Shown here: in pieces, positions 13,056 through 13,245 of the stretch | Layout of the letters: each line of letters opens with the position of its first letter | Numbering within the stretch: the stretch's first letter is position 1 | DNA from: Azospirillum lipoferum 4B | GTDB lineage: Bacteria; Pseudomonadota; Alphaproteobacteria; Azospirillales; Azospirillaceae | Direction of reading: 5' to 3' | Length of the DNA stretch: 64,000 nt | Assembly: GCF_000283655.1 (NCBI RefSeq) | Contig: NC_016623.1 | Coordinates: 496,001 to 560,000, forward strand | Position numbers and translations under genes: made by a program | The notes under the pieces: generated by a model | Database searches by the model: none | Told to the model about the DNA's origin: nothing | What the model saw: only the letters and a program-made list of their open reading frames with translations

Positions 13056-13245
13056 TCTTCGGATCCCTTCCTTGCCTGTTCGGCGGTCGTGCCAGGCAAC
13101 TGTTCGGGCGTGGAAGACGGCGGAGCGGTCCCAAGCTCATCCGCGGCCGGCCAGGGCCAAGGGGTTAGCGGGTGCCGCTCCACCCTGGGGGGTGGGGCAT
13201 GCCCCACCCCCCAGGGCTTCTTCTCTAGCAAAATTCAAAGACACA
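13056..13245 (-). ncRNA. Candidate IS110 bridge RNA (left end)
   Basis: The 190-base non-coding left end, read on the minus strand, folds into three parts. (1) A perfect 34-bp palindrome, 13183-13216. (2) A loop domain closed by GGAGCGG (13181-13175) with CCGCTCC (13128-13122). Its 5' side contains GCACCC (13175-13170), identical to the left side of the target repeat on this strand. Its 3' side contains GGATGAG (13142-13136), complementary to the right side CTCATCC. (3) A second domain with CTTCC/GGAAG and TTGCCTG/CAGGCAA stems, which contains ACAGTTGC (13103-13096), identical to the element's own right end next to the core (12099-12092). This is the layout known for bridge RNAs of IS621-type elements. 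Guide assignment is inference; expression is untested. Confidence 0.7.
13183..13216. repeat. Perfect 34-bp palindrome inside the IS110 left end
   Basis: The arm CCCTGGGGGGTGGGGCAT (13183-13200) is followed immediately by its exact reverse complement (13201-13216, with the central bases shared as ATGC). It is the strongest hairpin of the element and lies about 30 bases inside its end, 5' of the predicted target-binding loop. It may be the 5' stem of the bridge RNA or a shield against transcription entering the element. Confidence 0.85.

Follow-up and report, generated by a model that had tools for sequence, protein, structure and literature searches.

An IS110-type element of Azospirillum lipoferum 4B very probably encodes an IS621-type bridge RNA directed at a REP-like repeat, and the left ends of sister elements show one substitution, in a guide base

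In the stretch of Azospirillum lipoferum 4B DNA analysed here (64,000 nt, hereafter the window), an IS110-type element interrupts a repeat, and a non-coding left end (LE) precedes its recombinase gene. Does this LE encode an RNA that guides the recombinase and, if so, which of its bases read the target? Taking the evidence below together, we are confident that the LE encodes a bridge RNA of the IS621 type, with the guides ACCCCT and GGATGAG for the target and ACAGTTGC and CAAG for the element's own ends, and that the recombinase joins target and element at a CT core within a REP-like target.

The element lies on the minus strand at positions 12093-13247 (1155 bp, including the left core CT at 13246-13247), limits that were set by comparing the rejoined flanks with intact repeats; the right copy of the CT core is at 12091-12092 (minus strand). 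Read on the minus strand, with hyphens setting off the core, the left junction is GCACCC-CT-TGTGTC and the right junction is ACAGTTG-CT-CATCCCAACCC. The recombinase gene (12105-13055, minus strand) encodes a protein of 316 aa with the domains DEDD_Tnp_IS110 (PF01548) and Transposase_20 (PF02371). The only solved structures matched by the recombinase sequence were the ISCro4 and IS621 transposases. Residues D11, E58, D100, D103 and S238, which we take to be the catalytic residues, are all present. That assumption draws partly on Durrant et al. (PMC11208160).

The element has the features of the IS110 group of the IS110 family: a DEDD RuvC-like domain combined with a PF02371 domain that carries the conserved serine, a long non-coding LE (13056-13247, minus strand; 192 nt including the left core CT) with a short right end (12 nt), and insertion at a CT core without further duplication (the rejoined flanks equal the intact repeats, and an empty site, L135, is described below). 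Members of the IS1111 group have a long downstream non-coding region and subterminal inverted repeats of 11-13 bp; the downstream region here measures only 12 nt. A protein scan of the genome contigs returned one relative of the recombinase, and the closest named copy is that of Azospirillum oryzae A2P (L001). The 83 relatives found in plasmid records, all below 60% identity, were left out of later comparisons.

The insertion is scarless and lies at ACCC-CT-CATCC within an inverted doublet of the REP-like repeat. The first half of the interrupted doublet (12018-12092, delimited by alignment with the intact doublets) holds the right half of the minus-strand target, and the second half (13248-13331) holds the left half. 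When rejoined, the flanks align unbroken across the junction to intact repeats at 3031-3180 and 62154-62303 of the window, and also to repeats in the relatives G016 and G037, which bears out the claim of the first-pass annotation that the repeat is the insertion target. The repeat is palindromic and occurs in inverted doublets, of which the window has three, with further copies in relatives. The two intact doublets, with approximate ends at 3049-3170 and 62178-62292, each hold a vacant ACCCCTCATCC target (minus strand; 3080-3090 and 62203-62213, respectively). Perfect ACCCCTCATCC sites numbered 10 in G016, 7 in G037, 3 in G014, 2 in G043, 1 in G022 and 0 in G001; for AACCCTCATCC the corresponding numbers were 2, 4, 0, 5, 5 and 0.

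The interrupted doublet sits between convergent genes; it is the one doublet whose extragenic position was checked. The orthologous place was compared in six relatives and was informative in two of them (G001 and G014), the end of the left gene being unmatched in the other four. The convergent genes are 40 bp apart in G001 and 35 bp apart in G014, against 211 bp here once the element is subtracted; because of these short gaps, the doublet was scored as absent from both relatives. The repeat that holds the element is probably an insertion in its own right.

Other features were seen around the site. At approximately 12043-12079, about 35-40 bp of additional palindromic sequence (GGATCGGC...GCCGATCC) is inserted in the interrupted doublet; it is missing from both intact doublets of the window and present in a G016 repeat (L071). 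Two proteins with caspase domains (Peptidase_C14), one of them with WD40 repeats, are encoded nearby at 13366-15021 (minus strand) and 16132-19488 (plus strand), and a gene for a glycine-zipper protein (15230-16057) lies between them.

The first-pass annotation had proposed a bridge RNA from a set of short words, all of which are found on the minus strand as quoted (GCACCC, GGATGAG, ACAGTTGC, CAAGG and the stem GGAGCGG/CCGCTCC). On that strand, the candidate RNA begins with a 5' stem-loop (13183-13216), a 17-bp inverted repeat visible in both sequence and fold. It is followed by a target-binding domain (13119-13184) composed of a closing helix, an internal loop and an apical hairpin, as delimited by the fold, a six-lineage alignment and pair counts. 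The right target guide, GGATGAG (13136-13142, minus strand), is retained: it is complementary to CTCATCC. The left target guide is corrected here to ACCCCT (13160-13165, minus strand), which reads in the same sense as the left half of the target plus the core; the word proposed earlier, GCACCC (13170-13175, minus strand), falls mostly in a helix. With the core counted, the target guides are 6 nt (left, same-sense) and 7 nt (right, complementary) long. The left match amounts to four bases plus the core, positions -5 and -6 being mismatched in the targets of the window element, L001 and L032. In the donor loop, which matches both the right and the left end, ACAGTTGC (13096-13103, minus strand) equals the right end ACAGTTG plus the core C, and CAAGG (13070-13074, minus strand) offers CAAG for pairing with the left-end CTTG; the core T is unmatched by the left donor guide.

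By analogy with known members of the family, the bridge RNA would be a transcript of the LE, probably made on the excised circle. In the internal loop that serves the target, ACCCCT would bind the bottom strand of ACCC-CT and GGATGAG the top strand of CT-CATCC; in the loop that serves the joined ends of the element, ACAGTTGC would bind the right end and CAAG the left one. Binding and reaction are modelled on the same family members: the recombinase would join target and donor at the shared CT core, with no further duplication. The candidate promoter hexamers at the circle junction are weak (TTGCTT and TAGAGA, 3/6 each, 17 bp apart), and no promoter hexamers were found at the junction in the four relatives with TCG-ended right ends.

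Within the window alone, the guide matches are suggestive, and the case is carried by comparisons. The guide words had been judged rare by simple counting, and dinucleotide shuffling of the GC-rich LE gives a different picture: GCACCC was present in 2847 of 20000 shuffles, and for this reason means little by itself. The same set contained ACCCCT in 3044 shuffles, GGATGAG in 436 and ACAGTTGC in 47; ACCCCT and GGATGAG at a distance of 15-60 nt occurred in 11/20000.

The closest comparison is with sister elements whose recombinases have 95% protein identity to that of the window (including tblastn results): L001 in A. oryzae A2P (L002, with identical flanks, is that copy again) and L003, L031 and L032 in G043. 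Compared with the LEs of L001 and L032, that of the window element has a single substitution among its 192 bases, at position 13164, and the coding sequence differs from that of L001 at 50/951 positions; L003 and L031 have an extra G and an extra C, one in each arm of the 5' stem-loop, so that the stem is kept. The site of L001 is GAGGAACC-CT-CATCCCACC and that of the G043 copies is TTTCCAGAACC-CT-CATCCGATG. The latter three share one target and were counted as one independent target. Empty sites were found for both: the L001 site stands vacant in G043 (L135), and L139 is an unoccupied end of the insertion sequence into which the G043 copies are inserted.

That insertion sequence is flanked by TA, and our guess is that it is IS630-like. 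L003, L031 and L032, lying in its ends, probably moved as its passengers. Unoccupied ends of the same insertion sequence were seen in G043 and G022 (L139, L140, L141 and L143).

Position 13164 lies in the left target guide. It is C in the window, where the target reads ACCC-CT, and A in the sisters, where it reads AACC-CT, the guide changing from ACCCCT to AACCCT; this covariation of guide base and target among the sisters rests on a single substitution. We lean, by a narrow measure, towards the view that this base has switched targeting in nature. An element with C would go to the REP-like doublets of the genus and multiply there, and one with A to unrelated AACC-CT-CATCC sites, one of which is an end of a different insertion sequence; the LE has otherwise stayed free of substitutions, and the gene has drifted by 5%.

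The same comparison bears on whether this copy is a relic in which bridge RNA and recombinase no longer function. The window contains a single copy of the element, as a relic might leave. The reading frame is intact, as are the four acidic residues and the serine; relative to L001, moreover, the LE has changed less than the gene (Fisher p 0.0016), and among 48 changed codons 31 are synonymous. A relic is unlikely.

Copies of a related element in G016, which belongs to the same genus, are 90-94% identical to the window element over 41-60 LE bases in most fragments. Contigs end within these copies, so that no left end can be matched to its right end, and the counts, from 10 scored of 50 first-look candidates, are lower bounds: at least 8 of the 10 left ends found lie in the same repeat as the window element, or 7 of 8 when L110 and L111 are set aside. 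Those two match the G016 element for the first 25 bases only, then diverge, and may belong to a derived element. At positions -4 to -1, five of the ten left ends read ACCC and three CCCC; L103 and L111 differ more. Six right ends were found, four of them in the repeat, and all begin with CTCATCC, as the right target guide predicts. The single visible target guide (L102) has C, as in the window; it stands at a contig end, and a deletion adjoining its target loop may be an assembly fault.

Guide and target matching was also assessed beyond these close kin, as follows. The starting set was 57 gene copies (the window plus L001-L056). A motif search located both boundaries in 42 of them; 14 copies were skipped, and L027 was lost at a contig edge. 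Dropping L026 (no left flank) left 41, of which 24 were hand-picked as representatives; the 17 set aside come from genomes already represented. Targets were then swapped among elements. With guide positions left free, the agreement of guides with their own targets scored 294, against 166 for swapped targets (maximum 234), and 0/20000 permutations were as good. This version placed the left guide of the window in the 5' hairpin (CACCCC, tied score), and for that reason a position-locked version was run. In the locked test, agreement for the 24 elements was 306 (permuted mean 227, maximum 260; 0/20000), and for 14 lineages, with one element each, it was 180 (mean 131, maximum 157; 0/20000); these permutations are not fully independent, some representatives being related and sharing targets. 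Row by row in the locked test, the element's own target came out ahead of every one of the 23 swapped targets for 7/24 elements; the rest were tied or beaten by one or two, some of them from near relatives. The best placement was unusual in 7/24 (L005, L043, L014, L042, L011, L010 and L029). In the free test, swapped targets did equally well in 16/23 cases for L006, 14/23 for L043, 7/23 for L008, 5/23 for L029 and 4/23 for L011.

On the donor side, 8/9 letters of the right end plus the core C recur in the RNA of 22/24 representatives, and 7/9 in L043 and L008, a count that is biased, right ends having been located by motif. Differences between CAG and CGG and between TTG and TCG appear jointly in right end and RNA. 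L043 is an exception, its right end being ACTGTTG and its guide still ACAGTTG. The assignment of ACAGTTGC as left donor guide stands with this joint, if not invariable, change. For CAAGG, also upheld as right donor guide, the last 60 LE bases contain a complement to the four bases that open the left end in 16/16 lineages (in L008, CTCG with CGAG), a given 4-mer being fairly frequent by chance in 60 bases.

A consensus fold was not obtained from an alignment of 16 lineages. Six lineages that align nearly without gaps over the target domain share one consensus fold, a conserved secondary structure in which both target guides lie in the unpaired internal loop. In the minimum-energy fold of the window sequence by itself, parts of the two target guides pair with each other. 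In the MAFFT alignment as made, 115/132 cells were paired and 10/22 pairs had changed on both sides. The window row matched 13/22 pairs, being off by one base; a gap placed in an unpaired column brought it to 20/22. After this register correction, 122/132 cells were paired and 9/22 pairs had changed on both sides. Slid controls gave 32.1-51.1%, and the structure is favoured over them, being derived from the same alignment. The corrected stem scored as high in 0/500 shuffles on four recomputed measures, and without the window row 102/110 cells were paired, again with 9/22 pairs changed on both sides.

A covariance model (R1) was built from the uncorrected alignment. It matched 5/5 held-out copies of G362 at 40.3 bits; their target is CCTCATC-CT-GAGGT, and their RNA carries CTCATCC and ACCTCAG, fitting that target. 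For 18 other sources outside the training lineages, R1 matched four left ends at E 0.004-0.013, L011 at 0.099 and L030 at 0.57, and gave no match in the other 12; it also gave matches on the opposite strand (17-18.5 bits) and outside left ends (L010 and L012) at E 0.013-0.029. Rfam returned no match at the gathering score and, at a permissive E-value, 13 sub-threshold matches, none of them an IS110 RNA (the best was sX15, on the other strand).

Were the LE no more than a structured 5' leader, or a stretch of DNA on which the recombinase acts, its target matches would be coincidental, and GC-rich, palindromic sequence does make short matches frequent. Neither a leader nor a DNA site would be expected to give the swap-test results, guides that change with targets and ends, or the compensatory changes in the stem, so this explanation is very improbable. 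Those three lines of evidence, with the sister comparison, support the earlier proposal of a bridge RNA with a target loop and a donor loop.

A bridge RNA that used GCACCC as its left target guide is equally improbable: the word matches in full the six bases that precede the core at the left junction of the window element, but it is constant in L001, L003, L031 and L032 despite left target halves of GGAACC or AGAACC, and being identical in all close copies though their targets differ, it cannot be the guide; four of its six bases are paired in the target-domain helix (two of those pairs are C-G in 6/6 lineages), it is expected in 14% of shuffles, and the core letters CT do not follow it. The expectation that the loops vary with the insertion site across close left ends thus holds for ACCCCT/AACCCT, 10 nt further on, which tracks the target, and fails for the static GCACCC.

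More distant IS110 elements were observed in comparable places. L010 (G016) and L012 (G021), at about 40% protein identity to the window element, occupy the same type of repeat as that element, at different positions (GCCCCC-CT-CACCCC and CCAACCC-CT-CTCCC), an apparent convergence of IS110 elements on one repeat. Relatives at 45-46% identity are present in multiple copies in other palindromic repeats of G458 (L052-L056; site CGTCRTC-CT-GAYG) and of G362 (L130-L134, at the site given above), with guides that fit. In this branch of the IS110 family, targeting of REP-type repeats appears to recur with guides of unrelated sequence.

The element is an alphaproteobacterial addition to the RNA-guided recombinases of practical interest, one for which guides, empty sites and exact boundaries are available. 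With its near-identical sisters it forms a minimal natural experiment: since their left ends are one substitution apart and their landing sites differ, the step by which such elements change target is directly testable.

The class itself is already known. Among the literature matches listed, in a search of main texts with few subscription journals, there was no paper on an Azospirillum bridge RNA, and the first-pass statement that a repeat-targeting bridge RNA in this lineage is undescribed is true in that narrow sense. In its wider sense it is not: the available text of Durrant et al. (2024, PMC11208160) describes the bridge RNA architecture of IS621, the founding element of the class, and REP elements as its targets, and IS110 elements within REP sequences were catalogued by Tobes and Pareja (2006, PMC1525189), including ISRm19 of Sinorhizobium meliloti at 4/4 sites. 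Like IS621, as far as that text describes it, the present element has a probable RNA encoded in the LE upstream of a DEDD recombinase, in the order 5' stem-loop, target loop and donor loop, with the 5' side of each loop same-sense and the 3' side complementary, a CT core and a REP target. It differs in the shorter left target match (four bases plus the core, against 8-9 nt in IS621; PMC11208160), in guides, host and repeat, and in being known from DNA alone. Like ISRm19, it is an IS110 element in a REP-type repeat of an alphaproteobacterium; in contrast to the present case, no RNA figures in the available part of that account, and repeat and host differ. For the natural redirection between ISEc21 and ISMch6, the accessible text of Siddiquee et al. 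(2024, PMC11187229) reports that three guide bases are altered and that the proteins are 72% identical. As with the ISEc21 seekRNA and ISMch6, the upstream non-coding region of the present IS110-type element holds both target matches, and a natural guide change fits a changed target; unlike that pair, a single altered base, the sole substitution in the LE, separates the elements here, at 95% identity. What is notable in this locus is this natural one-base guide change, accompanied by a switch between repeat and non-repeat targets.
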